Positions 1,791 to 50,898 of a stretch of DNA of 64,000 nt are shown in pieces. Position 1 is the stretch's first letter. Each line of letters opens with the position of its first letter. A program made the translations under genes and the position numbers. The stretch is from positions 36,864,001 through 36,928,000 of the forward strand of contig OX637394.1 in NCBI GenBank assembly GCA_951799425.1, given 5' to 3'. The stretch comes from Ilex aquifolium. Its lineage: Eukaryota > Streptophyta > Magnoliopsida > Aquifoliales > Aquifoliaceae. A model generated the notes under the pieces. The model saw only the letters and a list, made by a program, of their open reading frames with translations, did no database searches and was not told the origin of the DNA.

Positions 1791-1883
1791 GATCATGGTT
1801 TGGAGGAAGAGCTCGGAGATGACGAGCAGGTGCTTTGGGAAGCTCAAGTTGATGGGCGTGTAGATCCGGAAGGAACTGTATAG
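1791..1883 (+). other. Putative 3' exon of LTR transcript encoding conserved 30-codon peptide (A, 5' LTR)
   Basis: After TTTTCAG the frame starting GAT at 1791 runs 30 codons to TAG at 1881-1883. It begins DHGLEEELGD and ends DGRVDPEGTV. The start is set by alignment to the other LTR families, all 30 codons long; there is no in-frame ATG. If CAG is the acceptor the intron is phase 1 and the first codon is completed by the last G of the upstream exon. Confidence 0.55.
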
Positions 1884-2182
1884 GATTGTCCCTTTTTTGT
1901 TCTAGACTAGGAGATTCCTTTTGAGAATATTGTTTACATTAATGTTTTGGTTATTCCGCTGCGAACTAATAGTTGATTTTTGGGATGTAATTGCCCTAGT
2001 TAGGCATATTTCTTTTGGATGTAATGGCCATGGTTTGACTTTTTCTTTTGGGATGATGATGTAGATATCATGTATGATGAATGAAATTTTTATTATGGAT
2101 GGAATTTATTAGTTGCTCTCATGATGTGAATGGTTTTAAATAGTAATGCCGACCAAGGGGGATTTTGGGGCGTTACAAATTT

Positions 2183-2194
2183 TGGCATCAGAGC
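2183..2194 (+). other. Primer-binding site, initiator-Met tRNA (A)
   Basis: TGGCATCAGAGC begins five bases after the 5' LTR; it differs by one base from TGGTATCAGAGC, the complement of the plant initiator-Met tRNA 3' end. Confidence 0.85.
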
Positions 2195-2368
2195 CTAGGC
2201 TTTAGGTCTTACATGAGAGCTGTAGGTTATGGATTACCACTAGGGAAGTAGGATTAGGTTAAAGGAAATTATTGATTTAAGTTTTTATGCAAGCATCATG
2301 CTTTAGATTAAAGTGATAGTTAGGATGTCTTGTACGTCAAGGAACTAAACTGTGAATTGATGTGCAGG

Positions 2369-5300
2369 ATGGATGGTAGACGTGGACGTGGACGAGGACG
2401 TGGTGGCCAAGCACACCCACCACCACCACCACCTCCCGATGCCATGAATGGCATTTATCAATGCTTACGGGAGCTAACCACTTTGGTACAACACCAAAAT
2501 GGGAACAACAACCACAATGGTGGGGTTCATCCTTTGGCTCAGGAACCGGGCAACGGGGACGGCAACCGAAGGATGGTAGTTCTTCGGGAATTTCTGAGGC
2601 AACACCCGCCCACCTTTCAAGGGAGCTCTAACCCTTTGGATGCGGATAAATGGATCCACCGGGTGAAGAAGATATGTGACGGCATGGGGATAGCTGAGGA
2701 TCTTCGGGTCGGCTTGGCTACTTATCTATTAGAGGGGGAGGCCGACCATTGGTGGGACTCAGTGAAAAGGAGAAGGAACACGGATGCTTTTACTTGGGAG
2801 GAGTTCGACCAAATCTTCCACGACAAGTACTTTTCAGAATCAGTAAGAGACAAAATGAAGGCCGATTTTCTTGCTCTCCGACAGGGCAGCATGACGGTGG
2901 CCGAGTACGAGAGGAGGTTTGATGAGCTATCCCGTTATGCTACAGAGTTTACATCTACTGAGGCCAGCAGGGCCAAGTGCTTCGAGCAGGGCTTGAGGCC
3001 TGTCATTCGGGAGAAGTTGGTGGCCCTTAAGATCCGGGAGTATGGGGATCTGGTTGACCGAGCTGCACTTGTGGAACGAGATATAGAGGACAGTCAGCGA
3101 CGACAGAGCTTCGCGAGAGGAGGTCAGATCAGGACGGGCACTAGCAGCAATGGAGTTCAGAGAACGGCACCTTATCGTCGCCCAGACCAGGCAGTGGGAC
3201 CTAGACCTCAGATAGCCCGAGGGGCCGGAGGTGTGCCCAAGGAAGCAGGCACTAACCCACGATCCTGCTTTGCATGTGGAGGTGTGGGACATATTCGGAT
3301 GCATTGTCCGATTTTTCCACCTCAGATGACTATCCAGACAACAGAACAGGTACCAACAAACAAGCCACCTCTACAAAGGCTAGCACAGCAGCGACCGTTA
3401 CAAGCTCAAGCCCTTGGCGGCGCCAATCAAGGGAGAGTGTTTGCTTTGACCCAACCGGAGGAGGACGCTTCCAATGCCGTAGTAGAAGGTATCGTACTTC
3501 TTTATAATTCTTGGGCCCGAATTTTATTTGACCCCGGTGCTACACATTCATTCATATGCACGAGTTATGCACTTAATCTAGGTTTGGATTTTGGGAAACT
3601 TGAACATGCTTTGAGTATTGATATACCGACGGGAGAACGGTTGGATACAACAAGGGTGTGTAGAGGATGTGTGCTTCATATTGGGGAGTAAGAGTTGATT
3701 GTAGATTTGGTTGTGTTAGACATGAAGGGGTACGACATTATATTTGGGATGAATTTGTTGTCCGCTTTCCGTGCGGTGATGGATTGTTTTCGTAAGCGGA
3801 TCTCATTCCAATCACCGGGAGGGGTAGTCTTTAATTTCATGAATGATCGCCATTCTTCCCATCCATTTCTTACTACGGGTAGTAGATTCTTGAAAGCTAA
3901 GGCGGGGAGCCACTTGAGTTTCTTAGCTAGCTTGATGGGAGATGATCGGGATAGATCCCAACCGGATGTGATATTGATAGTATCGGATTTTTTGGATGTT
4001 TTTCCCGATGAATTACCTGGGTTACCCCCACAACAAGAGATTGAATTTAAGATTGATCTCTATCCGGGAACCGAACCCATATCCATTGCTCCCTATAGAA
4101 TGGCACCTTTGGAGTTGAAGGAGCTAAGGAAGCAGTTAGACCATCTGTTGGCTATTGGGTTTATCCGTTTGAGTATTTCACCTTGGGGAGCCCCGGTCCT
4201 CTTTGTGAAGAAGCATGACGAAACGCTTTGGTTATGCACGGACTACCGAAGGTTAAATCGGGTGACAGTGAAGAATAAATACCCATTACCACGAATAGAC
4301 GACTTATTTGATCAGTTGAGGGGTTCTAAGTATTACTCCAAGATTGATCTTCACACTGGGTACCATCAACTACGGATTAAGGAGGAGGATATTCCTAAGA
4401 CAGTTTTCCGTACCCTATATGGTCATTTCGAATATACGGTGATGCCGTTCGGACTGACTAATGCACCAACAGCCTTCATGGATTTGATGCACAGTGTATT
4501 TCGGCCATACCTCGATCAGTTTGTCATTGTGTTCATTGATGACATCTTGATTTATTCACAGACCCAAGAGGAACATGCACGCCACCTCTCGATTGTGCTA
4601 CAGACGCTGAGAGAGCATAAGTTGTATGCGAAGATGAGTAAATGCGAGTTTTGGATGAAGGAAGTGAAATTCCTTGGGCATGTTGTGTCCAAGCAGGGAG
4701 TAGCTGTTGATCCTGCAAAGATTGAAGCCGTGATGAAATGGGAACCACCGAAGAATATGACTGAAGTACGTAGTTTCTTGGGTTTGGCAAGCTATTACCG
4801 GAGGTTTGTAGAAGGTTCTCAAAGCTTGCGATACCGATGACTCGCCTTACAAAGAAAGGGGAGAAATTCTTGTGGACTCAAGAGTGTGAACTTGCTTTTC
4901 GCACTTTGAAGGAGAAGTTGACAACAACCCCTGTTCTCATTATTCCGAACAGTGGGGAAGGATACGATGTTTACACCGATGCTTCACTACGAGACTTGGG
5001 ATGTGTGTTAATGCAAGGAGGCAAGGTAGTTGCTTATGGCTCGAGGCAACTCAAGACTCATGAGCAGAACTATCCCACTCACGACTTGGAGTTAGCCGCT
5101 GTGGTTTTTGCTCTTAAGTTGTGGAGGTGCTACTTGTATGGAGAGAAATTTCAAGTGTTCTCGGATCATAAAAGAGTCAAGTATGTGTTCACACAGAATG
5201 ACTTGAATCTTCGGCAGAGAATGTGGGTTGAGTATCTAGAAGATTATGATTTCACACTCACCTACCATCCGGGGAAGGCTAATGTAGTCGCAGATGCACT

Positions 5301-6866
5301 TAGCAGGAAGTCTCGGGGTGAACTTAATGCTCTTGCAAGTAAATGGAAGATGAGGGATGCCCTTGGAGACTATGATTTATGGGTTGGAGAAGATAGATCT
5401 CGGCCATGCCTATTCAATCTTGTAGCCCAACCTACCCTCCAACATAGGGTTGTGGAGTTACAATGCTTGGATCCTGACTTAGAGTCCATTCGAGCTAAAT
5501 TGAAAAATGGGGAAACGATGGAAGGTTGGTCTTTGAGGAATGGAGAACTGAGATACGGGGAGAAGCTATGTGTCCCATGTGATTCGTCTCTAAAGGAGGA
5601 GATACTTGGAGAGTGTCATCGCTCTAAGTTTGTTATTCACCCTGGTAGCACAAAAATGTATAGGGACATGAAGCGTCAATTTTGGTGGAAGGGAATGAAG
5701 AAGGATGTGGCAAGGTTCATAGCACGATGTGCGGTGTGCCAGCAGGTGAAGATCGAACATCAAAAGCCAGGAGGATTACTACAGTCTTTGCCTATCCCAG
5801 AGTGGAAGTGGGATCACATCACTATGGATTTTGTGTCGGGTTTACCACGGACGTCGCGCGGACATAATGCAGTATGGGTTATTGTGGATAGACTCACCAA
5901 GTCCGCTCATTTCTTGGGTATGAAGACCACGAACACGTTCGAGACTTTGAGCAAGCTCTATATCCGTGAGATTGTTAGGTTGCCCGGAGTTCCGCTCTCT
6001 ATTGTGTCGGATCGTGATTCTCGATTTGTGGCGCGATTCTGGCAAAGCCTACAACAAGCTATGGGGACAGAGTTACATTTCAGCACAACTTTTCATCCCC
6101 AAACGGATGGCCAATCCGAGATGGTGATACAAATTGTGGAAGACATGTTACGTGCTTGTGTATTGGATTTCAAGGGAAGCTGGAGTGAGCATTTGTCGTT
6201 GGTGGAATTTGCATATAACAACAGCTATCAGGCAAGTATTGGAATGGCTCCGTATGAGGCACTGTATGGAAGGCCATGTAGGTCCCCGACTGTTGGCTTG
6301 AAGCGGGGGAGAGTAGCTTATTTGGGTCGGAGATCGTGCGGGAGACTACAGAGAAGATTCAGCTTATCCGGGAGAGGCTACGCACAACACAAAGTAGACA
6401 GAAAAGCTATGCGGATCGAAGACGGAGACCATTGGAATTCCAAGAGGGGGACTATGTGTTCCTGAAAGTGTCACCCAAAAAGGGAGTGTTTAGATTCGGC
6501 AAGAAGGGAAAGTTAGCGCCAAGGTATACCGGGCCATTTGAAGTGATCAAAGTTGTGGGCAAAGCGGCGTATCAGTTACGGTTACCAGCTCAGTTGACAG
6601 GGGTATATGACGTGTTCCATGTGTCGATGCTGAGGAAGTGTCAATCGGATACAACGCGGGTCGTGGACTTGGAAGATATAGAAGTTCAAGATGGAGCAAC
6701 ATATGAAGAACAACCGGTGAAGATTCTTGATGCTAAGGAGAAGGTGTTTCGCAACAAAGTCATTAAATTGGTGAAAGTCTTGTGGCAACATCATGGGGTG
6801 GAGGAAGCTACCTAGGAACCCAAGCTGGAGATGCGAGAGAAGTACCCTCATTTGTTCGCTACTTAA
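2369..6866 (+). pseudogene. gag-pol: Element A gag-pol polyprotein (broken)
   Basis: The start is ATG at 2369, giving MDGRRGRGRGRGGQ followed by a polyproline run, as in elements B and D. Gag core is followed by one CCHC zinc knuckle (CFACGGVGHIRMHC near 3268). The protease motif is DPGATHSF instead of DSGATHSF, so the catalytic triad is altered. TAA at 3689 interrupts the frame where B has CAA. RT has FIDDILIYS near 4534. A single-base loss near 4816 shifts frame; RNase H (VYTDAS) and integrase (zinc-binding HHCC region, then MDFVSGLP and VSDRDSRF) follow in 4837-6290. A second frameshift near 6290 precedes the chromodomain segment at 6336-6866, which has TAG at 6813 where B encodes Trp. The residue E of the DDE triad is present in DGQSE. 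Confidence 0.93.
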
Positions 6867-6908
6867 GGTAAGTTTCGAGGATGAAACTTTCTCTAAGGGG
6901 GGGTGGAT
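6867..6908 (+). promoter_or_regulatory. Palindrome and polypurine tract (A)
   Basis: Directly after the stop lies an inverted repeat AAGTTTCG-aggA-tGAAACTT (6870-6889), then AAGGGGGGGTGGA adjacent to the 3' LTR, the plus-strand primer. The same palindrome-plus-tract order is found in B, C, D and F. Confidence 0.8.
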
Positions 6909-8085
6909 TGTAAACCCCCACATGTCATAGAACTTATACCAACTATATTGATATACAAATGTATGTTGTATATGTTTGAGTTGGTTTTGGAAGGGTTTGG
7001 AATGAAGTGGAAATGTGAAATGTGAAACGCACAGGGCATTTGGGGCAGATCAGGCAAAGCGTACTGGTACGCGTACCGGTACGACGAACTCTAGTAGCCT
7101 TAGCGTACCGGTACGCATACCTGTACGGTTTGGCGGACTTCCTGATTTTCTGATTTCCTCCTCTCCTGGGCTATCTCCAAGCTACCTTTCCATCCTTATT
7201 TGTCTCAAATAATTTGGGATGATGTTATAGATACTATGGATGGTGGTATGTTGGGTCTAGGAGGGGTCAATAGATTAAAAATATACATAGGCCGTGTATT
7301 TTAAAATTTCGGTAAATTTACTTTAGTAGTATGATAAATCATAAAACTAAATATTTTTAGGATAAAATAACATTAAAAATGAATTCGGAACGTCTAAAAA
7401 CCTTAGGGTGGTCATAGAGATCAAAATGGAGATAGTTAGTGGCAAAATTGTAATTTCATGGAAAAATGTAATTTTTGGCCTTGTGAACAGTAAAAATTGG
7501 GATTTGGAAGGCTTAAAACACCATTTTCATTCCATTTTTCTCTCATTCTTGCACACCACTCTCAACCCACACCTCTTAGAACCCTAAAGGAAGACTAAGG
7601 GAAAAAGAAAAGGGAGGAAGGAGGTCTATAGAGCTTGGGTTAGCTTGGAAATCTTGATTCAAGGTAGGGGTTTCCTTCCATTCTCTTGCATTGAGGCTAG
7701 GGCATACATATATGTACATTCTTTGGACTCTAAATCTTATATACTTGCTATGAAATTTTTGATTCTTGATGTTTATGCAAATGCGGTCATGTTTTAAACA
7801 ATACTATGGTGGAATCACCATTAAAACTATTTTCTTGGTCTCAAACCCTAGTTCTCAAGGAGAAAGGGGTTTTTCTCTTGATTTCTCATTGATTCTTGAA
7901 TTCAAAAACTTTAATGCTTGAAATTGAACCACAAAATAATATTTATGAGGATCTCTTGTATATCTTCTCACATTGTCTCTATTGTGCTACTTTATGAGAA
8001 AATTTGGGGATTTTTGGGAATGACTTGTTGTTTTTGAGAAATTGTGGATATTGTATTTCTTGTATGGTTGTTTTGATAAACATGG

Positions 8086-8113
8086 GTGAGAGGTTCCTTG
8101 TAAGGATGCTCAT
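8086..8113 (+). other. Single conserved-loop hairpin (A, 3' LTR)
   Basis: GTGAG, 18-nt loop AGGTTCCTTGTAAGGATG, CTCAT. One copy here against two in the 5' LTR. Confidence 0.45.
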
Positions 8114-8393
8114 GCCAAAGAGAACAATATTATATCATGTGTGGGTTATTGGTTTACTTTTGGGAAATTGTATGGCTCCATGTTGGTAGTTGGTTTCACC
8201 TCTCCGTTTAACTTTATTGTTGTTCGTAAACTAGAGATCTATTAAAATGTCACGATTTTCCTTCAAAAGTTATATATATGATATTTGTGAAATGAGACCG
8301 ACTTGTTTTATATTTTTTTCTAAACCTTGTTCGAGTTTGGGAGAATGTTGCTACAGAGTTTAGTGCTCACCCCCTACAAATAATATATTTTCA

Positions 8394-8486
8394 GATCATG
8401 GTTTGGAGGAAGAGCTCGGAGATGACGAGCAGGTGCTTTGGGAAGCTCAAGTTGATGGGCGTGTAGATCCGGAAGGAACTGTATAG
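8394..8486 (+). other. Putative LTR 3' exon, 30-codon peptide (A, 3' LTR)
   Basis: Same frame and product as at 1791-1883, ending at TAG 8484-8486. Confidence 0.55.
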
Positions 8487-8780
8487 GATTGTCCCTTTTT
8501 CGTTCTAGACTAGGAGATTCCTTTTGAGAATATTGTTTACATTAATGTTTTGGTTATTCCGCTGCGAACTAATAGTTGATTTTTGGGATGTAATTTTCCT
8601 AGTTGGGCATATTTCTTTTGGATGTAATGGCCATGGTTTGGCTTATTCTTTTGGGATGATGATGTAGATATCATGTATGATGAATGAAATTTTTTTTATG
8701 GATGGAATTTATTAGTTGCTCTCATGATGTGAATGGTTTTAAATAGTAATGCCGACCAAGGGGAATTTTGGGGCGTTACA

Positions 8781-9178
8781 ATTCCTCTTTAACAAAAGAG
8801 TCACCACTCCCTTGCTCCCCGATAACACTTCTCATTAGATAGCAACATAAGCAATAAGCGACTTCTTTTTTAATAATACACTCCAACCAACTGCCAAACT
8901 CATTGAACCAGGATGGACTAAAGCAACGAAATAGCTTGCCATATTTCTTTTGGCGAAAATTATGTTCACAGGGTTGACATGGGCCTTTTGTAGATATGCT
9001 TGCTAAATTTCATCCCGGTCATTAGGATGATAATCTGAAATTATAATTCTTAGCTCAGGATCCGCATGAAGATTTTCTAAGTTAACTCCTTCACGACTTT
9101 GCTTAGAACAATGTCATATGTCACCACCCTGATCATCTATTTCTTGACTAGGGGACGGTTGTTCCAATGTTGATTTTT
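8781..9178 (-). pseudogene. TTF-type zinc-finger / hAT-dimerisation family protein, upstream part
   Basis: Minus strand. An acceptor-like TTATAG ends at 9179; the exon then reads through an acidic N-terminal region, DPELR and SDYHPNDRDEI, then after one frameshift GPCQPCEHNF, FSPSWFNEF, AYCLCCYLM and GDSFVKEEFNNW, the classic TTF zinc-finger order with its conserved Cys residues. Stops are present at TGA (D-I-stop) and TAG (after RDEI). The frame continues into 265-1 after element A. A possible first exon is 9714-9732 (ATG, 19 nt, donor G/GTAATCC), joining in phase across a 535-bp intron; this start is inferred and weak. Confidence 0.8.
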
Positions 9179-11554: not shown

Positions 11555-11932
11555 CTTATTGTAAACCCCCACATTTGTATCGTTATATAGTAACCTAAGT
11601 ATGTTTGTTAATATATGTAATGATGTATGCATAAACTATGTACATGGTAAGAGTAGAAATAAAAATGTTAGTTGAGGTAATAGGGCATATTGTAGAAGTT
11701 TGGAAGCATTCCGGAGTGAAAGCACACTTTAGAGAGAGTTTGGGTAAAAAGGATTTTTGATACTTCCTTAGTAATTTGACCATAACTTTTTATCCTGATG
11801 TCCATTTGATCTGGAATTTGGACAGTATATGATATACTTCCAGGGCTACAAAATGGTATTTCACGAAAATTTTCCAAATCTACTTCTAAATAGGCCAAAA
11901 CATCACTGTACGTTTCAGCAGAACCTGGGATG

Positions 11933-12833: not shown

Positions 12834-12882
12834 GTGTTAGAGGTTAGTCTATCCCAGTGGGGGTAAGATGGTTTCCTAACAC
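12834..12882 (+). other. Hairpin GTGTTAG/CTAACAC in LTR (B)
   Basis: Seven perfect pairs around a 35-nt loop that contains AGGTTA and GGTAAGATG, resembling the A/D hairpin loop ends. The same 49-nt spacing is kept in C (29518-29566, 34834-34882) and E (49825-49873, one G-U pair). Confidence 0.45.
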
Positions 12883-13535: not shown

Positions 13536-13628
13536 GATTATGGTTTAGAAGAAGAGCCCGGAGTTGATGAGCAAATAGCTTGGGAAGCGCAATTGGATGT
13601 AAGCGTGGATCCCGAGGGGGATATCTAG
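13536..13628 (+). other. Putative LTR 3' exon, 30-codon peptide (B, 5' LTR)
   Basis: Follows ATTTTTCAG. Begins DYGLEEEPGV, ends DVSVDPEGDI, stop TAG at 13626-13628. Confidence 0.55.
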
Positions 13629-18100: not shown

Positions 18101-18582
18101 CAGCACAGAGTCGACAAAAGAGCTATGCGGATAGGAGAAGAAGGCCTTTGGAATTCAAGGAGGGATATTTTGTATTTCTCAAGGTGTCACCCAAGAAGGG
18201 GGTGTTTAGATTTGGCAAGAAGGGGAAATTAGCTCCAAGGTATACCGGACCGTTTGAAGTGATCAAAGCGGTGGGCAAAGTAGCGTATCAACTTCGATTA
18301 CCAGCCCAGTTGTCAGGGGTACACGACGTGTTCCATGTGTCCATGTTAAGAAAGTGTCAATCGGATACAACACATGTCGTGGATTTGGAGGACATCGAAG
18401 TTCAAGATGGAGCAACATATGAAGAACAACCGGTGGAGATTCTCGATAACAAGGAGAAGGTGCTTCGCAACAAAGTCATCCAACTGGTGAAAGTCTTGTG
18501 GCAACATCACGGGGTGGAGGAAGCTACTTGGGAACCAGAGCTAGAGATGCGAGAGAAGTACCCTCATTTGTTCTCGACTTAA
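15145..18582 (+). pseudogene. pol: Element B pol: PR-RT-RH-IN-chromodomain, open frame
   Basis: Open for over 1140 codons to TAA at 18580-18582. Numbered from the gag ATG: protease DSGATHSF at residue 390; reverse transcriptase FIDD at 724-727; RNase H VYTDAS with Asp 873; integrase HHCC zinc-binding region ([12 protein letters not shown] .. CTVCQQVK); catalytic Asp 1157 (MDFVSG), Asp 1218 (VSDRDSRF) and Glu 1254 (DGQSER), a D-35-E spacing; then the [13 protein letters not shown]-like module and a chromodomain (about 1450-1500, [11 protein letters not shown] .. [10 protein letters not shown] .. EEATWEPE). All catalytic residues are visible. It has no own start; translation would come from gag, which has stops, so expression is unlikely. 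Confidence 0.93.
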
Positions 18583-18623
18583 GGTAAGTTTCGAGGACGA
18601 AACTTTGTTTAAGGGGGGTGGAT
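18583..18623 (+). promoter_or_regulatory. Palindrome and polypurine tract (B)
   Basis: Perfect 8-bp inverted repeat AAGTTTCG/CGAAACTT around AGGA (18586-18605), then TTTAAGGGGGGTGGAT abutting the 3' LTR. Confidence 0.82.
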
Positions 18624-23369: not shown

Positions 23370-23462
23370 GATTATGGTTTAGAAGAAGAGCCCGGAGTTG
23401 ATGAGCAAATAGCTTGGGAAGCGCAATTGGATGTAAGCGTGGATCCCGAGGGGGATATCTAG
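23370..23462 (+). other. Putative LTR 3' exon, 30-codon peptide (B, 3' LTR)
   Basis: Identical to the 5' LTR copy at 13536-13628. Confidence 0.55.
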
Positions 23463-28909: not shown

Positions 28910-29002
28910 CTAAATGTCCCACTCGGGATCCAGGTACCCCTCTAATGAGGCTTCCCCAAGGCCCGGCTCATTAGCGCCAAGCTCCTCCTCTAAAGCCAAA
29001 TC
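28910..29002 (-). other. Putative LTR 3' exon, 30-codon peptide (C, 3' LTR)
   Basis: After CATTTTTCAG on the minus strand; begins DLALEEELGA, ends EGYLDPEWDI, TAG at 28912-28910. Confidence 0.55.
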
Positions 29003-30848: not shown

Positions 30849-30889
30849 ATCCACCCCCCTTAAAGAAAGTTTCGTCCTCGAAACTTACC
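30849..30889 (-). promoter_or_regulatory. Polypurine tract and palindrome (C)
   Basis: Minus strand TTTAAGGGGGGTGGAT next to the LTR, preceded by AAGTTTCG-aggA-CGAAACTT, as in B. Confidence 0.8.
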
Positions 30890-31418
30890 TCAAGTAGCGA
30901 ACAAATATGGATACTTCTCCCGCATTTCTTGCTCCGGTTCCCATGTAGCTTCTTCCACGCCATGATGTCGCCACAAAACCTTCACGAGTCGGATGACTTT
31001 GTTGCGGAGCACCTTTTCCTTGGCATCAAGAATCTCCACCGGTTGTTCTTCATATGTTGCTCCATCTTGAATTTCAATATCCTCTAAATCCACGACTGGA
31101 GTTGCATCCGATTGACACTTCCTCAACATCGACACGTGGAACACGTCATGTACCCCAGACAACTGAGCTGGTAACCGCAACTGATACGCCGCTTTGCCCA
31201 CAACCTTGATCACATCAAATGGTCCGGTATATCTTGGCGCTAACTTCCCTTTCTTGCCGAATCGAAACACGCCCTTCTTGGGTGACACTTTGAGAAATAC
31301 ATAGTCTCCCACCTTAAATTCTAAGGGTCTTCGTCGGTGGTCCGCATAGCTCTTCTGTCTACTTTGCGCCGTCTGTAGCCTCTCCCGGATGAGTTGAATC
31401 TTCTCCGTAGTTTCCCCA
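30890..31418 (-). pseudogene. Integrase C-terminus and chromodomain remnant (C)
   Basis: Minus strand from [13 protein letters not shown] through [40 protein letters not shown] to chromodomain [17 protein letters not shown] .. [18 protein letters not shown] and TGA at 30892. It corresponds to about the last 175 codons of B pol. The frame is open but has no start of its own; catalytic integrase residues are missing. Confidence 0.9.
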
Positions 31419-33830: not shown

Positions 33831-36164
33831 TGTAACGCCCCAAATACCACCCTGGACGGCATTACATTCTAAAACATTCACATCATGAGAGCACTAAATA
33901 TATATCCATCAAATAAGAAACATTCTTAATTTTTAACAAAATTTGGGCAGAGTCTCCTTCGTACGGGAAGCTCTCCCAAAACTCACAATCTGTACATTTA
34001 TAATACCTTGACCACACCGGGTCTATCTAACCATCAAATCCAAAATATTTCATTCACCATATATACTATCCACAACAATCATCCCAAAAGAATAAGCCAA
34101 ACTAAGGCCATTACAACCCAAAAGAATTACATGAATATATTGCAGCGGAATTTCAAAAGAAACTAGATTTTACAATGTTTGTACATATTGGTTCCTAGTC
34201 TAGTACAAAAATAAAAGGGGCATCTCTAAATGTCCCACTCGGGATCCAGGTACCCCTCTAATGAGGCTTCCCCAAGGCCCGGCTCATTAGCGCCAAGCTC
34301 CTCCTCTAAAGCCAAATCTGAAAAATGTTAATTGTAGGAAATTAGCACGAAGCTCTGTAGCAAAATCTTCCCAAACTCAAACAAGGTTTAGAAAAGCATA
34401 TAAAACGGTTGGTCTCATTTTCACAAATAGCATATATACCATTTTGAAAGAAAAGCAGGACATTTTAAATAGATCTCAAGTTTAAATGTTCGCAATAATT
34501 TAAATGAACCGTAAAACTCAGTCACCATTATCACCATAACCATTTCTAACAGGTTCTTATGGAGTCCCATACCTCCACAAGCACTTGTTGGAAACCATTC
34601 CGTAACAATAATAATAATCTCATGTTCTCATGTATATTGATTGCTTCCCATGAATCTACCCAACGACTTATACCTAGTTCACCAATCACCATCACAATCA
34701 CAAGTACTTTAGGAAGAGGCGTCTACCATCCCAATGGCAGTGACGAGTCCCTTCCCAGGAAAGGTATACCACCCCTCGTTCGAACTCCAGTGAACAATAG
34801 TGGCGGTTATTACCAAATAACCACCCACTACAAGTGTTAGGCAACCATCTCATCCCCACCGGGATAGACTAACCTCTAACACTCTACGGCAATGCTCGAA
34901 GGCAATCCAAGTCCATCACAACAATCATACAAGAGAGATCATTACAAACATTTCTCAATTCACAAGAAATCCCCAAATTTCACCATTTGTACCACAGCAT
35001 AATTGAAGAAAAAGAACAAGAGATCACCATAAACATCATTTGGTTGTACAATATCAAGCACTAAGGTTTTGATGGTGAGAACAAAGGAAATGTAAAGAAG
35101 AAAAATTCATTTTTCTTAAAACTAGGGTTTGAAGAAGTAAAAGAGAGCTTTAATGGCTACCCAACCATCACAATGTTTAAAACATGGCAATAAATGCAAG
35201 AAGACCAAGAATCAAGTAATTAATAGCAAGTATATATGATTTCAAACCACAAGAATACATATAAGTTAACCCTAACATCAATGTAAGAGAATAGGAAGAA
35301 ATCCCCTACCTTAATGTTCTTGGAAAAATTAGGGCTTTGATCTTGAATCAACCCTTCAATCTCTTGTTTTCTCTTGATCTTGTGTTTCTCTCTTTCTCTC
35401 TTCCTCTCTTATGTTTTCTAGGGTTTGGAGTGGTGTAATGAAGGTTAAGGAGGTGACAAAAATGTATTTATAGTGGAGGAAAAATAGGCTTGTTCGCGAC
35501 TTAAAATCTCAGATTTTTACAGTGACTACCGGTAGCTGATTTTGACTACCGGTAGCTCGGGTACACTAGACACTCGACTACCTGTTGACTACCGGTAGCT
35601 CGGACACACTGGACCATTGACTACCGGTAGCTGATAGTGACTACCGGTAGTCACTATCCAGATTTTTCTACTTCCACTTCCAGTGCATTTTTGACCTATT
35701 TAGAGGTCGAATTGGAAAATTTTCATGAGATACACTTTTGTAGCCCTAGATGTCTACTATCTACTGTCACAATTTCAGGTCATTTGGAATTAAGAATAAA
35801 AATTTATGTCCAAAATACTAAGAAGTATTCAATACCCATTTTTACCCAAATTCTCGCTAAAGTGTATTTTAACTCCGGGACACTTCCTAACTTCCAATAC
35901 ATCCATATTACCACTCCCAATTTTTTTCGACCTTCCGGATTCAATGGAATCATTATTTTGACCTACACACTTTTAGAAACTTGTCTAATCACCCTTTCCA
36001 AGTTTAAACATCTTCGACACGTAACTTCCCAATCAAATTGTCTACATAGCATTTATTCCTACGGTTTATTCTTATGTCACTACATATATCTACATCTTTA
36101 CAAATATTATTTACTATATATATATATCTCTATAAATATATAAAAGAAAATTCGGGGTGTTACA
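33831..36164 (-). repeat. Element C 5' LTR
   Basis: Same as 28515-30848, with intact TGTAAC..TACA ends. Palindrome cluster 35533-35658, donor 35308-35309, hairpin 34834-34882, peptide frame 34226-34318. Confidence 0.93.
34226..34318 (-). other. Putative LTR 3' exon, 30-codon peptide (C, 5' LTR)
   Basis: Identical in frame and product to 28910-29002. Confidence 0.55.
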
Positions 36165-36308: not shown

Positions 36309-36349
<41 letters not shown>

Positions 36350-38986: not shown

Positions 38987-39079
38987 GATTACCCGCTTGA
39001 GGAGGACGTAAGGGTCGAGGAGCCCGCTACCTGGGAGACTCCACTTGACGGGAGTGTGGATCCCGAGGTGGACGCATAG
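38987..39079 (+). other. Putative LTR 3' exon, 30-codon peptide (D, 5' LTR)
   Basis: After TTTTTTAG; begins DYPLEEDVRV, ends DGSVDPEVDA, TAG at 39077-39079. Confidence 0.55.
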
Positions 39080-39531: not shown

Positions 39532-41129
39532 ATGGACGGTGAACGAGGACGAAGACGTGGACGTGAACGAGGACGAGGACGTGGACGTGAACGTGGACGT
39601 GTACGTGAACGTGGAAGTGTACGTGAACGTGGATGTGGGCGTGGTCATGGAGGTCAAGCCAATCCACCATCACCGCCACCTCCCGATGCTTTGAATGTCA
39701 TATATCAATGCTTGAGGGAGCTCACCACTTTGGTACAAAACCAAAATGGGAACAATAACCATAATGGTGGAGCTCATCCACTCGCTCAAGTACCAGGCAA
39801 TGGGAACGGAGACCGAAGGATGATAGCTCTTCGGGAATTCTTGAGGTAACGTATACCCAATTTCCAAGGGAGCTCCAATTCTTTGGATGCGGATAGGTGG
39901 ATACGGTGGGTGAAGAAAGTGTGTGACGGCATGGGAGTTGCCGAAGACTTGAGGGTTGGCTTGGCGACCTACTTGTTAGAGGGGGAGGCCGACTATTGGT
40001 GGGATTCGGTTAAGAGACGGAGGGACACCAATGCTCTTACTTGGGAGGAGTTCGACCGAATCTTCCAAGACTAGTACTTCCCTGAATCAGTCAGAGACCG
40101 AATGAAGGCTGATTCTTGCACTACGACAGGGCAGTATGATGGTGGCCGAGTATGAGAGGAGGTTTGACGAGCTCTCCCGTTATGCTACGGGATTTATATC
40201 TACTGAGGCCGACATGGCCAAACGCTTTGAGCAGGGATTGAGGTCTGTCATCCGGGAGAAGTTGGTGGCCCTCAAGATCCGGGAGTATGGGGACCTGGTT
40301 GACCGAGCTGCATTGGTGGAGAGAGATATAGAGGACAGCCAGCGGCGACAGAGCTTCGCAAGAGGAGGTCCGATCAGGACAGACCCTAGCACCAGTGGAG
40401 TGCAGCGAGCAGCACCATACCGAAGTCCAGACCAGGCAGGTGGACAGAGACTTCTGACAGCTAAAGGAGATGAAGTGACTCAGACTAGAACAAGCACTGA
40501 CCCGCACCAATCCTTTGCATTCGGAGAGTATGGGCACTTCAAACATAGATGCCCCTCGTTTCCCCCAAGGACCAAACAAGCAACCGAGCAAGTACCAGCA
40601 AACAAGCCACCTCTACAAAGGCCAGCACAGCAGAGACCTCAGATAGCTCGAGGAGCGGGAGGCGTACCAGAGAGAGTAGGCATGGATGCACGCCGATGCT
40701 TTGCCTGTGGAGGTGTTGGGCACTTCAAAGATAATTGTCCATTGCTTTCCACCAAGACCAACCAAGCAACTGGGCGAGTGAATGCAAACAGGCCACCACT
40801 ATGACAGCCATTACCACCACAGAGACCGTTACAAGCTCAAGCCCCCGGCGGCGCCAATCAAGGAAGGGTTTTTGCTTTGACTCAACCGGAGGAAGATGCC
40901 TCCAACGCCGTTGTGGAAGGTATTGTTCTTCTCTACCATTCTTGGGCCCGAATTTTATTGGATTCCTATGCGACTCATTCTTTTATACGTACTGCGGACG
41001 TTGTGGAATTAGGATTGGGTTCCGAGGAGCTAGAACATGCTTTATATGTTTACTTGCCTACGGGAGAACAGGGGGATACCAGGCTGGTCTATAAGGGTTA
41101 CGTGAAAGCGGATTACATTTCAGTTACCA
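39532..41129 (+). pseudogene. gag: Element D gag and protease start (broken)
   Basis: ATG at 39532. The Arg-Gly head is expanded (repeats of RGRERGR / RERG over ~38 residues) compared with ~12 residues in A and B, then polyproline and the gag core. Breaks: TAA at 39847 (B and A have CAA), TAG at 40072, a one-base loss near 40110 after which the frame shifts, and TGA at 40802 (C has CGA). It contains two zinc-knuckle segments, the first degenerate (SFAFGEYGHFKHRC), the second intact (CFACGGVGHFKDNC). The protease motif is DSYATHSF as in C. The sequence leaves coding at GTAGG 41130. Confidence 0.9.
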
Positions 41130-42310
41130 GTAGGTTTACTTATATGTATTTCTTTGACTCTAAATGTTATATGTATGCTATCCAATCCTTGATTCTTGCT
41201 ATTCTTGAAATTAATGCCATGTGAAAAATAATGTGATGGTTGAGTAACCCTTAAATCGCCTTGCTTGCTACCAAACCCTAGTTTTCAAGGGAAATGTGTT
41301 TTTCTCTTGATTTCTCCTTTGTTCTTGATTTCCACCCTTGATATTTGTTTGTTATTGATTTCAATACCTGATTGTTCCTTATTTTTAATTCTAAGCTTGA
41401 TATTCGTTGTTATGGATTTCAAGAAGTGATTGTTCATTTGTTCTTGATTTCCAAGCTTAATATTCATTTGTTCTTGATATCTAAATTTGATATGCACTTG
41501 GTAGTGACTATAACCCTTGTGATTCAATTATTCTCAATATTCAATACTTGAAATTCTTTATTCTTGGTTCCAAGACTTGAGTGTTCTTTTGGTCTTGATT
41601 TCTAAGCTTCATAATCATTTGTTCTTGATTTCACACCTTGATAGTCGTTTGTTATTGATTTTCATACATGATTGTTCCGTTAAATCTTAATTTCTCATTT
41701 GTTCATGACTTTCAAGCTTAATACGCCTTTATTCTTGATTTCCAAGCTTAATATTCATTTGCTCTTGATAGCCAAATTTGATATTCATTTGATTGATTCT
41801 AACTATTGTAATTCATGTATTCTTGATATTCAATACTTGACATCCTTTGGTTCTTGATTTCAAGACTTGGTTGTTCCTTTGTTTTTAATTTCCCCAGGCT
41901 TGATGATCCGTTGGTTCTTCATAGCCAAATTTAATATTCATTTGTTATTGATTCTAACCCTTGTGATTCATTTATTCTTGATATTCAATACTTGATATTC
42001 ATTGGTTCTTGATTTCAAGACTTGACATTCAATTGCTCTTGATTTCAATACTTGATTTCTCCTTGTCCTTGAGTTCAAAACTTGATACTCTTTAGTTCTT
42101 GGTTACAAAGCTTGATATGCATCTGTTATTGACTCCAAGACTTGATTGTTACTTTGTTCTTGATTCCAAAGCTTGATTATTTATTTGTTTCTTAATTCAA
42201 AATTCTAACGATTGGTATTGACCAATAAAATGGTATTTTCGATGATATTATGTTAATTTTTCTTAAATTATTTCGTTGGAAAAATGTATGTGGATTTGGG
42301 TCGCTTAAGA
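41130..42310 (+). repeat. LTR-intron-derived filler with ~30-bp minisatellite (D)
   Basis: Same junction as in C (GYV, then TTACCA/GTAGGTTTACTTATATG). The first ~200 bp resemble the start of the LTR intron of E (TATATGTATTC..CTTGCTAT..GATTCTTG..GTGATGGTTG), followed by ~850 bp of diverged TTGTTCTTGATTTC-type repeats, then a return to integrase sequence at about 42311. Confidence 0.75.
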
Positions 42311-42696
42311 AATGAGTGTTTAGATTCTGCAAGAAGGGCAAGTTAGCGCCAAGATATACCGGACCGTTTGAGGTAATCAAAGCGGTAGGCAAGGCGGCAT
42401 ATCAACTTCGACTACTAGCCCAGCTATCTGGAGTACATGACGTGTTCCACGTGTCCACGTTGAGAAGGTGTCACTCGGATGCAACTCCAGTCGTGAACTT
42501 GGAGGAGATTGAAATTCAAGACGGAGCAACCTACGCAGAACAACCGGTAGAAATTCTCGACGCCCAGGAAAAAGTGCTTCACAACAAAATTATCAGATTA
42601 GTGAAGGTTTTGTGGCAACACCATGGAGTGGAGGAAGCTACATGGGAACTGGAGCAAGAAATGCGGGAGAAGTATCCATATTTGTTCGCTACTTGA
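42311..42696 (+). pseudogene. Integrase tail and chromodomain remnant (D)
   Basis: Open frame [16 protein letters not shown] .. VFHVSTLRRCHSD .. chromodomain [33 protein letters not shown], to TGA at 42694. About 40 residues shorter at its 5' side than the same remnant in C. No start of its own. Confidence 0.88.
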
Positions 42697-42737
42697 GGTA
42701 AGTTTCGAGGACGAAACTTTCTTTAAGGGGGGTGGAT
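42697..42737 (+). promoter_or_regulatory. Palindrome and polypurine tract (D)
   Basis: AAGTTTCG-aggA-CGAAACTT followed by CTTTAAGGGGGGTGGAT next to the 3' LTR. Confidence 0.82.
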
Positions 42738-44360
42738 TGTAACAACCCGCATTTTCTTTTATATATGTATATAGATATATAGTAAATAATTGTTGTAAAA
42801 ATGTGGATATGTGTAGTGATGTGTGTTTGAATTTGGTAGATTGGAAAAGTAGAGATTTAAAATGTTAGTGGAAATAATAGTTGAAATTTAGTTTTAATAA
42901 GTGAAAATATGAAATTTTAGGTCCTAGAACTTGTATTAAATAGGTTTGGTGTAGAAATATGTGTTGGAGAGGTTTGTGATGGATTTGGTTGGCTTAGGAA
43001 TGGATTGGAAATGGAAAAGGGATGAAACATCACGTGAACAGTGCACTAGCTGCAACTTCAAGCGCGATTTCGACCTTGATGCAGTCAATATCTCTCAAAA
43101 CTCAAAACATGAAAGTTGTAGCATTCCATAGCATCTTGAATCATCTCAATCGGAGCTCGGATGAGAGAGTCATGCCCAGATAACGAAGCAATGTCAAAAC
43201 AGTCCAATTAGCTTGAACAGTGCACTGGCTGCAACTTCAAGCCCAATTTAGACCTTTATGCAGTCAATATCTCTCAAAACTAAAAACATGAAAGTTGTAG
43301 ATATCTTTCTTAGCATTCCATAGCATCTTGAATCATCTCAATCGGAGCTCGGATGAGAGAGTTATGCCCAGATAACGGAGCGATGTCGAAATAGTCCAAT
43401 TAGCTTCGTTTTGCATTTAACGTCTCCATTTGCATCCTAAATCAAAATATAAGAATAATGAGTACATTTAGGCTTCAAATAAGTATAAAAGGCTTTAAGA
43501 TGCACCATTTATCACCTTTTATTTGCAAACAACGCAAAACTTCATTAATAGCCGGTTCGGATGGGTAAAATAGAAACTTTAGTGTTTCGGGTGTACGTTG
43601 AATTTGGTTTTGAGATAAATCATAAAAATAATTTTTTTTAGGTTAAAATAACATTAAAAATGAATCCGGAATGTCAAAAAACCTTAGGGTAGTCATAGAG
43701 ATCAAAATGAAGATATTTATTGGCAAAATTGTAATTTTGGAGAAAAATGAAATTTTTGGGCCCAATAAACAGTAAAATTCGGGATTTTACTGCCCTTATA
43801 ACCCCATTATCTTCTCATTTTCTTAATTTCTTCATTCCACTCTCACACCCCAACCCTTAGAACCCTAGAGGAAGACTAAGGGAGGAAGAAGAGGGAAGAG
43901 GGAGGTCCCTAGAGCTTGGGTTTCACTTTCAATCTTGATTCAAGGTACGGGTTTTTCTCTCATTCACTTACATTGAGGCTAGGGTATATATATATATGTG
44001 TGTTTTGGCTATCAATGGTATATATATGCTATGGAATCATCATCTCTTAGGATTTTTGCAAAGATTACATGTTTTGAACAAAGTTAGGGTTTAATACCCA
44101 TGAAATCTCTTTTCCAGTTTTAAAACCCTAATTTTTGGAGAGTGATGTATTTTCTTCTTAAATGCTTTATTTATTATGAATTTCGAAACCGTAGTGCTTT
44201 GTGTTGGGTAGAAAAATGATGTTATTGTGATCTCATGCATTTTTTTTAGTTGGTTGTGGAATTGTTACATGATATATTTTGGGGATTTTGGATAGATGCT
44301 TGTAAATTGAGATAAATGTTGGAATTGTATGCTTGGTTGGGTTGTTTGTGATGCACATGA

Positions 44361-44587
44361 GTGAGAGGTTCCATGTAAGGATGCTCACCCCTTCTCAAGA
44401 GGTTCCCGGTAAGGATGCTTGAGAAATAAGTCTGTTATAGTGAGAGGTTCCTTGTAAGGATGCTCACCCCCTTCCCAAGAGGTTCCCGGTAAGGATGCTT
44501 GGGAAACAATGTAGTGATTGGTGAGAGGTTCCATGTAAGGATGTTCATCCATTCTCAAGAGATTCCCGGTAAGGATGATTGAGAATC
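44361..44587 (+). other. Six-hairpin array (D, 3' LTR)
   Basis: Same array. The first arm is GTGAG/CTCAC (perfect here, G-U in the 5' LTR), and the last hairpin has decayed on both sides (AGATTCC loop, ATTGAGAAT arm). Confidence 0.65.
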
Positions 44588-44894
44588 AAAGGTGACCTAA
44601 AAGGGGGTGGAGGTTACCACAAAGTATGCCACCTACCGAAAGAATTGTTGGGAATTGTTTATGGCCATTAATGATTATTAATTGTATGTGGTGCTCATTT
44701 ATTCATTTAAGTAATGTTTTTTTTTAAATAAAGTTGAGATCTTTTTTTAATGTCACTGCTTTATTTCAAATTATGTATCTATGTTATGTTAAAAATGAGA
44801 CCGACCGTTTTAAATGTTTTTCTAAACCTTGTATGGGTTTGGGAGAATTTTTCTACAGAGTTTCGTGCTCACCCCTTACTGCTAACATTTTTCA

Positions 44895-44987
44895 AATTAC
44901 CCGCTTGAGGAAGACGTAAGGGTCGAGGAGCCCGCTACTTGGGAGACTCCACTTGACGGGAGTGTGGATCCCGAGGTAGACGCATAG
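44895..44987 (+). other. Putative LTR 3' exon, 30-codon peptide (D, 3' LTR)
   Basis: Same frame with GTG to GTA (synonymous) near the end and GAT to AAT in the first codon; TAG at 44985-44987. The acceptor AG is lost (TTTTTCAA). Confidence 0.45.
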
Positions 44988-45608
44988 AGCGACCTCCTTT
45001 CCTTTTGTACTAGACTAGGACATTCTTTTGGAACATTGTGTAGTCTAGCTTCTTTTGTTTATTCCGCTGCGCTTCTTTAATTAATTTTTGAGATGTAATA
45101 GCCATGACTTGGACTTATTCTTTTGGATAATGTTGTAAATATTCGTGGATGACAAATGAAGTCTTATTTCTTAAGGGATTATATTAGTGCTCTCATGATA
45201 TGAATGATTTTAGAATGTAATGTCGTCCAGGGTGTGTTTTGGGGTGTTACACTTACCATGTCTTTGACAATATCGATTTAGTATATTTTCAGTTATGTTT
45301 AAATTTAGTGAACTTGCAATCAATTAGTCTTCACAAACTCACTCTTTAATTATTCTGCGAACAGAGAGATTATGTTAAATTTCTTTACATGCATAGCAAT
45401 CCATTTCAAAATCAAATTAGTTTTAAGAATTCTAATTTGATATAATTTAATACCAGATTTACTCAATGCACAACTGTCATTTTATGAAATAGCTTCAACA
45501 ACTTATATTTGGTGATTTATAAACATTGAATCAGTTTTGGAATAATGTAATAAATTAAAATATAAATAAATTTTAAACTAAAGTTTGGTAAATCACAAGT
45601 ATTTGTGG

Positions 45609-46048: not shown

Positions 46049-46258
46049 TTATTGTCCCCTACAACTCTTAACCCTCTTAAGACTGAAATTCTTAAAAACT
46101 TCATTATTGAATACCTCATTCTGAAACCTTGTGACTCGTTTTTGACCTAGCACCCCCGCATATTCAAATTGTTGCTTCATCACAAAGGCAAATTCACACT
46201 TATTTTCCCTATGTATCGAAGAAACTAAAGTCTCATATGATACCGTACCATCTTCCAT
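46049..46258 (-). pseudogene. Unrecognised ATG-bearing exon in host repeat
   Basis: Minus strand, ATG at 46258, begins MEDGTVSYETLVSSIHREN, then EFAFVMKQQFEYAGVLGQKRV and a Lys/Arg-rich end; stop at 46049. Upstream is A/T- and pyrimidine-rich sequence like a 5' leader. Equivalent positions in copies 1 (near 10750), 2 (near 25360) and 4 (split by solo LTR E, near 50940) keep the same ATG region with stops or frameshifts. No family recognised. Confidence 0.4.
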
Positions 46259-46942
46259 TGAAAACACAAATCAAGCAACAAATCTACAACCACATAATCA
46301 TAAAAGATCAAACTTGAACCTTTTATGATTACAAAAAAAAAAAAACTAGAACCCAGACAAAAGCCTAGGGTCTCCAGATTGAAATTCAAATAAAAAAAAA
46401 CCTCAACAAATGATGATATATAGATATATATTTAATCGCATATCAAGTGTTGATTTCTAGGGAATCTAGTCGAAAAACACATTCAGAGAGACGAGAAAAA
46501 TAGGCTTCTGATGAGATATAAGAGTGGACGATGTTCTTGAACAATTGGGGGAGAGACAAAGATCACCTTAAATTCTAGTATTCCAAAACTACCCTATAGA
46601 AATCAATTTGAAGTTTCAAATTATGGTATTTGTTATGAAGCCCCTATAATTTAAGGCCTTTGGAACTACTCCCATTAGGATGTCATAATGATAGTGCTTA
46701 TATGTCAACAATAAAATCTAGATTGAATGACAATAGAACTATCAAATATAAAGTAGAGAAGACAACAAGGCAGGTTCAAACAGAAATCTATATTCCCCAC
46801 CCTCGCAACAAAATAAGACTAACCAAATGAAAAACTTATATGGCAATAAGGCAAATAATAAGGCTATTGAAAGCAAAAAAAAAAAAAAAATGGTAATAGA
46901 CAAATCTAGGCTAGAGTATTTCCTTCATTTACCTTGCTTTAT

Positions 46943-48478
46943 GGTGTTCAATATTCTAATATTTGAATATTCTGAATTTGAGTTAATAAATAAGATCAAT
47001 TGTAGAAAGAAAATGATCTGCAAAAAAAAGGTAAGAAGTCTTAAATATGTGAAATAGAAAGAGACTATCCAAAATATTTATGAATAGAAAATCAATATAC
47101 ATAAATCTATAGAGAGAAAGGATGTTAAACCTTGAACTGATATGGTGAATGGGTTAAGCTTCAAAACATGAGAAGGACCGCAAACTATTGTTTATTAACT
47201 TAATATCATAATAGAGTGAACCTCAATGGCCAAGCAGAAGTAGTTGTCGATATCAAACAATTGCAATTCTAGACCTTGAGAGAAAGGGGCTAAGAAAAGC
47301 ACAAAAAATATCAATTAATTATTTACATACTTGTAATAACCACTATAAGATTGCCTTAATATAGAACTTGACTTAGTTCTATATATGAAGTACAATCAAA
47401 ATTTTAACAGTTCGGATTGGCATCAAAGCGCTATGATATATTAATTTATTGCATGTTTAGATATGGATCCTCTTTGGATCATCAAATAAATTGCCTTGAC
47501 TATATCTTCTACAATATCAATTTAGTATGTTCTCAGTTTTGTTTAAATTATGAACTTGCAATCAGTTATTCTTTACTAACTCATTATTTAAGCCGATATA
47601 AATTCTGCAAACGGAGATATTAGGATAAATTTATTTACACACATAACAATCCATTTCAAAATCAAACTAGTTTTAAGAATTATAATTTGGTATAATTTAA
47701 TACAAGATTTACTTAATGCATAGCTGTCATTTTATGAAATAGTTTCAATAACTTATGTTTGGTGATTTGTAAGCATTAAATCAGCTTTGGAATAATGTAA
47801 TAAATTAAAATATAAATATAATTTAAACTAAATTTTGGTAAATCACAAGTATTCGTGTACACGAGCATTGTACGTGCAGTTAGCGTGCAGAGATTTCATA
47901 CCTAAACGAACAAAGTGCATCACTAATAACATTCGTTATGCAACATTTTTGTTCAAGCTCGTAAATCACTAAAATCATGTGCTCCCTATTATCTTCCATA
48001 AAATCAAATACTATTTTACTTTTGAATGTCGCTTCACAATTAATTTTTTTCATGTCAACAACTAATTTTTTCCTCATCAATCACTCACTAAATCCACTTT
48101 CTCCCTATCGTTACCCGTCAAATGATTCATCTTATTGTCCTTATCTCATTTTTTTTCTTAGGACATCACCCTTATCTCTCATATTTTGTCTTAGGACATC
48201 ACCTTTTTCTCTCATCACCGCCTCATTATTCACCAGATTTCCACATCAACCATTAATTCATCTTCCACCTAGGGTATTTTCACATCCTTCTAACTCACCT
48301 TATTGTCCCCTACAACTCTTTACCCTCTAAATATTTAAATTCTTAAAAACTTCATTACTGAATACCTCATTCTAAGACCTTGTGACCCATTTTTTACCTT
48401 ACATCCCCTGCATATTCCAATTGTCGCTTCATCACAAAGGCAAATTCACGCTTATTTCCCCTATGTATTGTAACACCC
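46943..48478. repeat. Host ~2.2 kb repeat, copy 4, first part
   Basis: Starts TTCAATATTCTAATATTTGAATATTC as copies 2 and 3, in pieces; contains the coding-like block 47880-48080 (minus). Interrupted at TGTAT by solo LTR E. Confidence 0.8.
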
Positions 48479-50898
48479 CGTATTTTTCTTTTATAGATAT
48501 GTATATAGACATATATAGTAAATAATTGTTGTAAAAACATGGATATGAGTAGTGACGATAGGAATAAAAACTAGAGATGCGAATTGATTGGGAAGTTAAG
48601 CTTCGAAGATGTTTAAACTTGGAAAGGGTTAATAGACAAGTTTCTAAAGGTTTTTAGGTCAAAATAAGGTTTCCATTGAGTCCGGAAGGTCGAAAAACCT
48701 TGGGAGAGGTAATATGGGGTGTATTAGAAGTTAGGAAGTATTTTGGAGTTAAAACACATTTTAGAGAAAATTTGGGTATAAAGGATTTTGGACACTGTCT
48801 ACTATTTCGATCATAACTTTTTATTCTTAATTTCAAATGACCTGAAATTTTGACAGTAGATAGTAGACATCTAGGGCTACAAAAGTGTATCTCATGAATA
48901 TTTTCCAATTCGACCTCTAAATGGGTCAAAAATGCACTGTAAGTGGAAGTAGAAAATCTGGGTAGTGACTACCGGTAGCCAAAATCAGCTACCGGTAGCC
49001 AATGGTCCAGTGTGTCCGAGCTACCGGTAGCCACTGTAAAAATCCGAATTTTTTTAGTTCGCGAACCCTCGATTTTTCCTCCACTATAAATACATTTTGT
49101 CACCTCCTTAGCCTTCATTACACCACTCCAAACCCTAGATAGCTTGAGAGGAGAAGAGAGGAAGAGAAAAACACATCCAAGAGAGAGATTTACATCATTT
49201 GTGAAGATCAAACCCTAGATTTCTCAAAAATCTCACTTCCCCACCCATTTCTTTTCTTCTATTCTTCAATCACTCTCACCCAAATCTCTTGAAACCCTAG
49301 GAGGACGAAATTAAGAGGAAAAAAGAAGGAGAATAGGAAGATTTTGAAGCTTGAGTCTTAGATTGAAGCTACAACTAAGAGGTAGGGGATTTCTTCCTAT
49401 GTTCTTACATTGAGGCTAGGGCTACATTATATGTATTCTTTTGGTTTAAAATCATATGTACTTGCTATTAAATACATGATTCTTGTTCCTCTTGAAATAA
49501 ATGTCATGTTTTGAACATTGTGATGGTTGGGTAACTATTAAATTTCTCCTTTTCATCTTCAAACCTTGGTTTTAAAGAGAAATGGACTTTTCCCTCTATT
49601 TTTCCTTGGTATTGCTTTCAAAACTTTAGTGTTTGATATTGTACACCAAAATGTTACTTATGATGATCTCTTGCTCATTTTCTTCCATCATATTATGAAA
49701 CATTATATTAGAAATTGTGGAATTTGGTAATTCCTTGAAATGTTGATGAATTGAGAATATGTTGGTTTTCTCAATTGTATGATTGTTGTGAGGGACTTGG
49801 ATTGCCTTCGAGAGATGCCGTAGAGTGTTAGAGGTTAGTCTACCCCAGTGGGGGTGAGATGGTTTCCTAGCACTTGTAGTGGGTTGTCATTTGGTAATGA
49901 AACCACTATTGTTCACTGGAGTTCGAACAAGGGATAATATACTTTTCCTAGGAAGGGACTCGTCACTGCCATTGGGATGGTAGACGCCCTTTCCTATAGT
50001 GCTTGTGATTATGATGTAAATAGGTGGACTAGGTATAATCGTTGGGTAGATTCATGAGAAGCAATCAACATACATGGTACGGGGATGAATCAATATACAT
50101 GAGATTATGAGATTATTATTATTGTTACGGAATGGTTTCCAACAAGAGCTTGTGGAGGTATGGGACTCCACAAGAACTTGTTGGAAACGGGGATGGTGGT
50201 TAATGATGACTTGGTTTTACTGTCCATTTAAATTATTGTGAATACGTAAACCTGAGATCTATTTAAAATGTCCTGTTTTTACTTCAAAATTCATATATGC
50301 TATTTGTGAAAATGAGACCGAACTGTTTTAATATAATTTTCTAAACCTTGTTTGAGTTTGGGAAGATTCATATATGCTATTCGTGCTCATCCCCTACAAT
50401 TAACATTTTTCAGATTATGCTATCGAGGAGGAGCTTGGCATTAATGAGCCGGGCCTTGGGGACGCCTCATTGGAGGGGTACCTAGATCCTGAGTAGGACA
50501 TCTAGAGATGTAGCTTATTTTTGTTATAGACTAGGAGATTTATTTCTGAACAATGTAAAGTCTAGATTCTTTTGGAATTCCGCTGTGATATATTCATGTA
50601 ATTCTTTTGGGAATGTAATTGCCATACTTGGCCTATTCTTTTGGGATAACATTATGGATAGTATAGATGGTAAATGGAATTTTATTGTTATTGGATGGTT
50701 AAATGGACCCTGTGTGGTCAAGTTAATATAATTGCACAGGTTGTGTTTTTGGGTAGAACTTCCCGTACAAAGGAGACTCTGCCCAAATTTTGTTAAATCT
50801 AGGATGTTTCTTATTTGATGGATATATAGTTAGTTGCTCTCATGCTATGAATGGGTTTAGAATGTAATGCCGTCCAGGGTGGTATTTGGGGCGTTACA
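48479..50898 (+). mobile_element. Solo LTR E (family C)
   Basis: 2420 bp, TGTAACACCCCG..GGGGCGTTACA, flanked by TGTAT (48474-48478, 50899-50903). It shares CTACCGGTAG palindromes (48968, 48989 and 49021 regions), TATAAA at 49085, donor AG/GTAGGGG at 49382, the hairpin 49825-49873 and the peptide frame with element C's LTR, but is clearly diverged from it. No internal region remains. Confidence 0.92.
50413..50505 (+). other. Putative LTR 3' exon, 30-codon peptide (E, with internal stop)
   Basis: After TTTTTCAG; begins DYAIEEELGI, ends EGYLDPE-stop-DI where C has Trp (TGG to TAG); aligned TAG at 50503-50505. Confidence 0.5.

Follow-up and report, generated by a model that had tools for sequence, protein, structure and literature searches.

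Do the long terminal repeats (LTRs) of plant retrotransposons carry part of the protein that these elements encode? The question is raised by a stretch of 64,000 nucleotides from Ilex aquifolium (contig OX637394.1 of assembly GCA_951799425.1, positions 36,864,001 to 36,928,000; this whole stretch is called the window below), which holds Ty3/gypsy elements of chromovirus type and lies in a genome of 800 Mb in 103 contigs (labelled G000). In the LTRs of families A to E, a T-rich (C/T)AG is followed by a frame of 30 codons and then by TAG. A preliminary description of the window read this frame as an exon for an acidic C-terminal tail, spliced from an upstream exon that ends at AG/GTAGGG in the same LTR (here and below, the slash marks the splice boundary). 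We conclude that the exon encodes protein and is maintained by purifying selection. As regards its partner, we see about an even chance that it is the terminal coding exon of the polyprotein, spliced from the end of pol into the 3' LTR so that the chromodomain region would be followed by an acidic tail.

A constrained 30-codon exon in the LTRs

The copies of the exon in the window are as follows, in window coordinates.

1791..1883, forward strand: exon and TAG in the 5' LTR of family A; the first exonic base is 1792, codon 1 being shared across the junction
8394..8486, forward strand: exon in the 3' LTR of family A
13536..13628, forward strand: exon in the 5' LTR of family B
23370..23462, forward strand: exon in the 3' LTR of family B (LTR split by about 19862-22630)
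28910..29002, reverse strand: exon in an LTR of family C
34226..34318, reverse strand: exon in the other LTR of family C
38987..39079, forward strand: exon in the 5' LTR of family D
44895..44987, forward strand: exon in the 3' LTR of family D, with the acceptor mutated to AA
50413..50505, forward strand: exon in the E LTR, with an additional in-frame TAG at codon 28

The residues quoted in the preliminary description are present in the sequence, and its account of exactly 30 codons and an aligned TAG after (C/T)AG applies to these nine copies, except for the early TAG in E and the AA in place of AG in the second D acceptor. Upstream of the AG the frame is disrupted by indels, as had been stated. 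The accompanying claim was that coding constraint begins at the AG; conservation of the nucleotide sequence does not begin there, as about 100 nucleotides of the intron before the AG are well conserved too.

A nucleotide profile applied to the window and to a further 200 kb of this genome (80 kb adjoining the window and 120 kb from six other contigs; loci L001-L020) recovered 25 copies of the exon. Of these, 20 have an uninterrupted frame of 30 codons that is closed by a stop at codon 31. The five non-intact copies comprise E, one copy in L004 and L001, which contain internal stops, and related copies in L017 and L018, which have a one-base deletion near the acceptor. The latter two, at about 7241 in L017 and about 2966 in L018, represent a family in which the remaining tail is intact. 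The exon-tail profile found nothing in element F (51761-62337), and the tail of B matched no Pfam or PDB sequence.

Such a stretch might instead be an untranslated, nucleotide-level element (an RNA structure or a cis signal) that looks open by chance. This explanation can draw on the conservation of the intron end and of parts beyond the stop, and also on the frames themselves. Among 22 copies, related to each other (the 25 minus L001, L017 and one of L018), frames 0, 1 and 2 of the exon are open in 20, 0 and 3, and the corresponding counts for the flanking 90 nucleotides are 3, 15 and 4 upstream and 6, 1 and 0 downstream. Since one upstream frame is open in 15 of the 22 copies, openness by itself is no proof of coding. 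The explanation is contradicted by the third-position pattern and the omega (dN/dS, nonsynonymous over synonymous substitution) given below, and we give it hardly any credence.

The preliminary description had proposed dN/dS over the 30 codons as a check. We fitted a codon model to 12 divergent copies found by DNA similarity, a set cleared of near-duplicates and of copies interrupted by a stop or a frameshift. The log-likelihood is -817.5 at an omega of 0.27 (kappa 1.95), against -841.1 for the best grid fit at an omega of 1. In the same 12 copies, pooled pairwise pS/pN (proportions of synonymous and nonsynonymous differences) is 0.63/0.32 in frame 0, 0.39/0.37 in frame 1 and 0.36/0.40 in frame 2. 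Third positions vary most, an excess that was matched by none of 20,000 shuffles; it was reached in 6 of 20,000 in a set of 28 copies including loci selected by protein similarity. Differences at the three codon positions number 7, 5 and 14 between A and B, and 9, 8 and 21 between B and D. Within groups, pN/pS is 0.31 for A, B, L011 and relatives (10 pairs), 0.18 for the C group (6 pairs) and 0.24 for the D group (3 pairs). The pol regions of A and B differ with a dS of 0.78 and a dN of 0.07, which indicates that the constraint on the tail is weaker than that on pol, yet clear.

The exon also extends to more distant loci. A protein search with the divergent tail of L016 returned 143 matches with E values of at most 10, part of which are expected by chance. 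The query included neither the stop nor the two bases before the G with which codon 1 begins. In the 20 matches that were read, (C/T)AG stands directly before the frame in 18 and a stop is found at codon 31 in 15; these loci were picked by amino acid similarity and were excluded from the omega estimate. A 42-residue stretch of B, compared with 5.8 billion proteins, retrieved two ENA proteins (from contigs of 698 and 708 bases) in which the same tail follows an unspliced intron end.

Candidate partners of the exon

Donor sites in A, B, C and D were scored with a plant donor matrix of our own making. The top site in each is the G/GTAAGT at the end of pol, with 11.2-11.5 bits.

6864..6873, forward strand: pol-end stop TAA and donor G/GTAAGT of family A; first intron base 6868
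18580..18589, forward strand: pol-end stop TAA and donor G/GTAAGT of family B; first intron base 18584
30883..30892, reverse strand: pol-end stop TGA and donor G/GTAAGT of family C; first intron base 30888
42694..42703, forward strand: pol-end stop TGA and donor G/GTAAGT of family D; first intron base 42698

This donor is in phase 1, which is the phase of the LTR exon, and it is kept in nine of nine aligned sequences, of which four, the L013/L014 copies, are almost the same. The comparison of donors covered the parts on either side of A 3970-6370, a span in which only A and B could be compared. The last intron would start at the pol-end donor, take in the polypurine tract and the beginning of the LTR, and end at the T-rich (C/T)AG of the 3' LTR; in the splice product, the integrase/chromodomain end of the polyprotein would be extended by 30 acidic residues. 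Where a stop precedes the donor, the tail could be reached if that stop is read through on the spliced RNA, or if a second donor of the same phase, at the gag/protease boundary, is used instead. Since the stop is nearly fixed in this genome and the tail is still constrained, one of these two routes would be required. Splicing, pol as the partner and the passage of the stop in this genome are all steps that we infer from the sequence. Twelve ENA relatives from other assemblies (P0005-P0015, P0017) were compared; they lie on contigs of 65-108 Mb, against 62 Mb for C1 of G000. Ten of them keep an open frame across the donor codon, the exceptions being P0006, which has a frameshift, and P0015, which stops before that point. 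A small tree separates the relatives from A-D with a support of 0.99. Its root, near B and L011, is weakly supported (0.84), and either the stop or the open state may be the older.

Several observations weigh against the pol end as partner. The stop stands directly before the donor in all 14 near-family pol ends that were read; among these, the donor GT has been lost in L006, and the base preceding the donor is altered in L018 and L038. Exact matches to the block in the whole genome number 1,855 with TAA or TGA before the donor and 35 in which that codon begins with a base other than T, the pattern for the latter having also demanded ACT before the codon. The constraint on the tail persists within groups whose pol ends, where seen, carry the stop. 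A search of the genome for copies of the pol-tail junction gave one match with 3 mismatches against none in the control, which is too weak to count. Finally, conservation around the donor may have other causes, as the conserved block continues to the polypurine tract.

Two further donors enter into the weighing of alternatives.

3486..3494, forward strand: weaker in-phase donor AAG/GTATCG at the gag/protease boundary of family A; also at about 15200, 32881 (reverse strand) and 40920
1007..1012, forward strand: LTR donor AG/GTAGGG of family A; the AG elsewhere at 12278, 29995 (reverse strand), 35311 (reverse strand), 38033 and 49380

The main rival is a short Gag. Here the gag/protease donor, which is in phase 1 and has no stop in its way, would be spliced to the acceptor of the 3' LTR, so that Gag ends with the 30 residues, pol is omitted and more Gag than Pol is made. 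We consider this less likely. The donor AAG/GTAT(C/T)G is present in eight of eight aligned sequences (four near-identical); with 6.0-7.1 bits it is far weaker than the pol-end donor. Its GGT glycine codon recurs in F and in an element of a different lineage in L015, and may therefore be kept by constraint on the protein. The model gains from the families C and D, in whose internal parts nothing similar to the reverse transcriptase (RT)/RNase H part of A and B was found, but in whose relatives the capsid part of gag is still under constraint (pN/pS 0.16, six non-autonomous pairs). The tail, too, is constrained within the C and D groups, of whose members L015, L018 and L031 may or may not be autonomous. 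The stretch right before the donor is weakly constrained (pN/pS 0.68, 28 non-autonomous pairs), and a pattern for the gag-tail junction gave 10 matches in the genome against 7 in the reversed control. Spliced short Gag RNAs have been reported for BARE1 and EVD (PMC3735527, PMC12786077). Another model that uses gag, and one that we regard as very improbable, is a micro-protein of about 33 residues, made by splicing a weak phase 1 donor that closely follows the initiation codon of gag (A 2376) to the 3' LTR exon. Its GT is kept in the right phase in seven of eight aligned sequences (four near-identical); the donor reaches only 4.3-4.6 bits, and the sequence that lacks it is, by alignment order, family B, though B keeps the tail.

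The preliminary description had placed both exons within one LTR, with AG/GTAGGG spliced to (C/T)AG and the start codon coming from exon 1 or from a fusion to a host sequence. Its argument that the exon is coding, that its product resembles an acidic C-terminus and that the start has to come from elsewhere is borne out. The donor is indeed present in families A to E (first intron base 1009, 12280, 29993 on the reverse strand, 38035 and 49382), the second D LTR reading GTACGG, and similarity between groups starts sharply there. The upstream coding partner fails: in the stretches examined, the open frames of LTR exon 1 contain no ATG and no frame is common to the families, so that we rejected it in this role. 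The spliced LTR junction of family A has no copy in the genome at up to 3 mismatches, the LTR junctions of the other families not having been searched. Searches for copies of spliced RNA in the genome, covering the family A LTR junction and the pol-tail and gag-tail junctions, gave nothing above chance. We hold the model with both exons in one LTR to be improbable; AG/GTAGGG may still be a genuine 5' leader intron without a coding role.

Beside these comparisons, we note that the A/D, B and C/E groups differ in sequence up to the LTR donor (A 1009, B 12280, C 29993 on the reverse strand, D 38035, E 49382), where similarity among them sets in abruptly and continues into the intron. The protease remnant of the non-autonomous families was tried as evidence on the partner and discarded, its divergence being too small (pS 0.02). 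At G000:C1:28180750-28262606, 17 same-strand matches to the pol-end block are spaced 5,094 to 5,124 bases, and this regular spacing suggests a tandem array of similar elements.

Structure of the elements in the window

about 281-8781, forward strand: element A
2369..6863, forward strand: gag-pol region of element A, with broken frames; the Pfam matches given below were made on pieces of B
11558-23718, forward strand: element B
28514-36171, reverse strand: element C
36819-45251, forward strand: element D
about 48461-50898, forward strand: E LTR
51761-62337, reverse strand: element F

Pieces of B match Retrotrans_gag, RVP_2, RVT_1, RT_RNaseH, Integrase_H2C2 and SH3_Tf2-1 above the Pfam cut-offs, and thus contain Gag, protease, RT, RNase H and integrase in the order of plant Ty3/gypsy elements. 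The integrase core rve scores 30.1 bits, slightly below its cut-off of 32.6, and a Chromo match at the expected place scores 17.4 bits, below the curated 25.1. We assign the elements tentatively to the Tekay (Del) lineage of chromoviruses, with which they share a tRNA-Met-like primer site and TGTAAC...GTTACA ends. The stretch at about 19862-22630 that splits the 3' LTR of B has parts in common with the LTRs of F.

The internal parts of C and D contain gag sequence (in C without the gag start), a protease remnant, a repeat-rich stretch and the C-terminus of integrase with the chromodomain region. Both C (30854-33829, reverse strand) and D (39343-42754) appear to be non-autonomous, and their protease motif reads DSY, against DPG in A and DSG in B. 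The integrase C-terminus and chromodomain region of this non-autonomous type is constrained (pN/pS 0.27, 15 pairs). After the protease remnant, at 41130-42200 in D and 31640-32660 (reverse strand) in C, lies a segment resembling the start of the LTR intron together with 30-bp repeats; in D it opens with GTAGGT, by eye again in phase 1. The part of gag around the zinc knuckle is duplicated in C, D and relatives (about 40445-40830 in D, 33360-32970 on the reverse strand in C).

Relation to other retrotransposons and possible meaning

The element SIRE1 has an env-like protein behind pol that is reached by suppression of a stop codon, and to our knowledge no LTR exon is involved. The proposed tail resembles it as an extension behind pol that would be reached past a stop; here constrained codons would follow the stop in frame on the predicted spliced RNA alone.

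The elements in the window share with Tekay (Del) chromoviruses the domains for Gag, protease, RT, RNase H, integrase zinc-binding and SH3-like folds, all above cut-off, and differ in having a coding exon within the LTR, which is unmentioned in the accessible part of a survey of these lineages (PMC6317226). As in Ogre, another Ty3/gypsy element, splicing would alter the polyprotein; the intron of Ogre lies in the polyprotein region (PMC6317226), whereas the predicted acceptor and exon in the holly elements lie inside the 3' LTR. The copia elements EVD/EVADE and BARE1 produce spliced subgenomic RNA favouring Gag (PMC12786077, PMC3735527), in BARE1 a spliced RNA for Gag (PMC3735527). Past the junction in EVD, the frame shifts and runs into a stop (PMC12786077), whereas here the LTR would supply a constrained tail of 30 codons. 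According to a 2025 review, plant LTR retrotransposons are generally without introns, Ogre and EVADE being exceptions (PMC12786077). Spliced isoforms have been observed in sunflower, in an expressed set without Tekay elements (PMC7730604). In the open-licence literature searched, as far as its accessible text goes, we found no earlier account of a coding exon in an LTR.

A broader picture, which we hold with some doubt, is that this chromovirus group may hide the last exon of its polyprotein in the LTR. The tail would then be present only in spliced RNA, spliced and unspliced RNAs would yield different integrases, and the nearly fixed stop would act in some families as a second switch, operated by readthrough. 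LTRs are usually viewed as regulatory DNA, and a selected coding exon in abundant families would mean that part of a protein is encoded there, a constrained peptide possibly overlooked in surveys of domains and in the annotation of repeats. If the proposed splicing is real, it could distinguish RNAs that are to be translated from those that are to be copied, and if the tail sits behind the chromodomain, it may influence the sites at which these elements insert.

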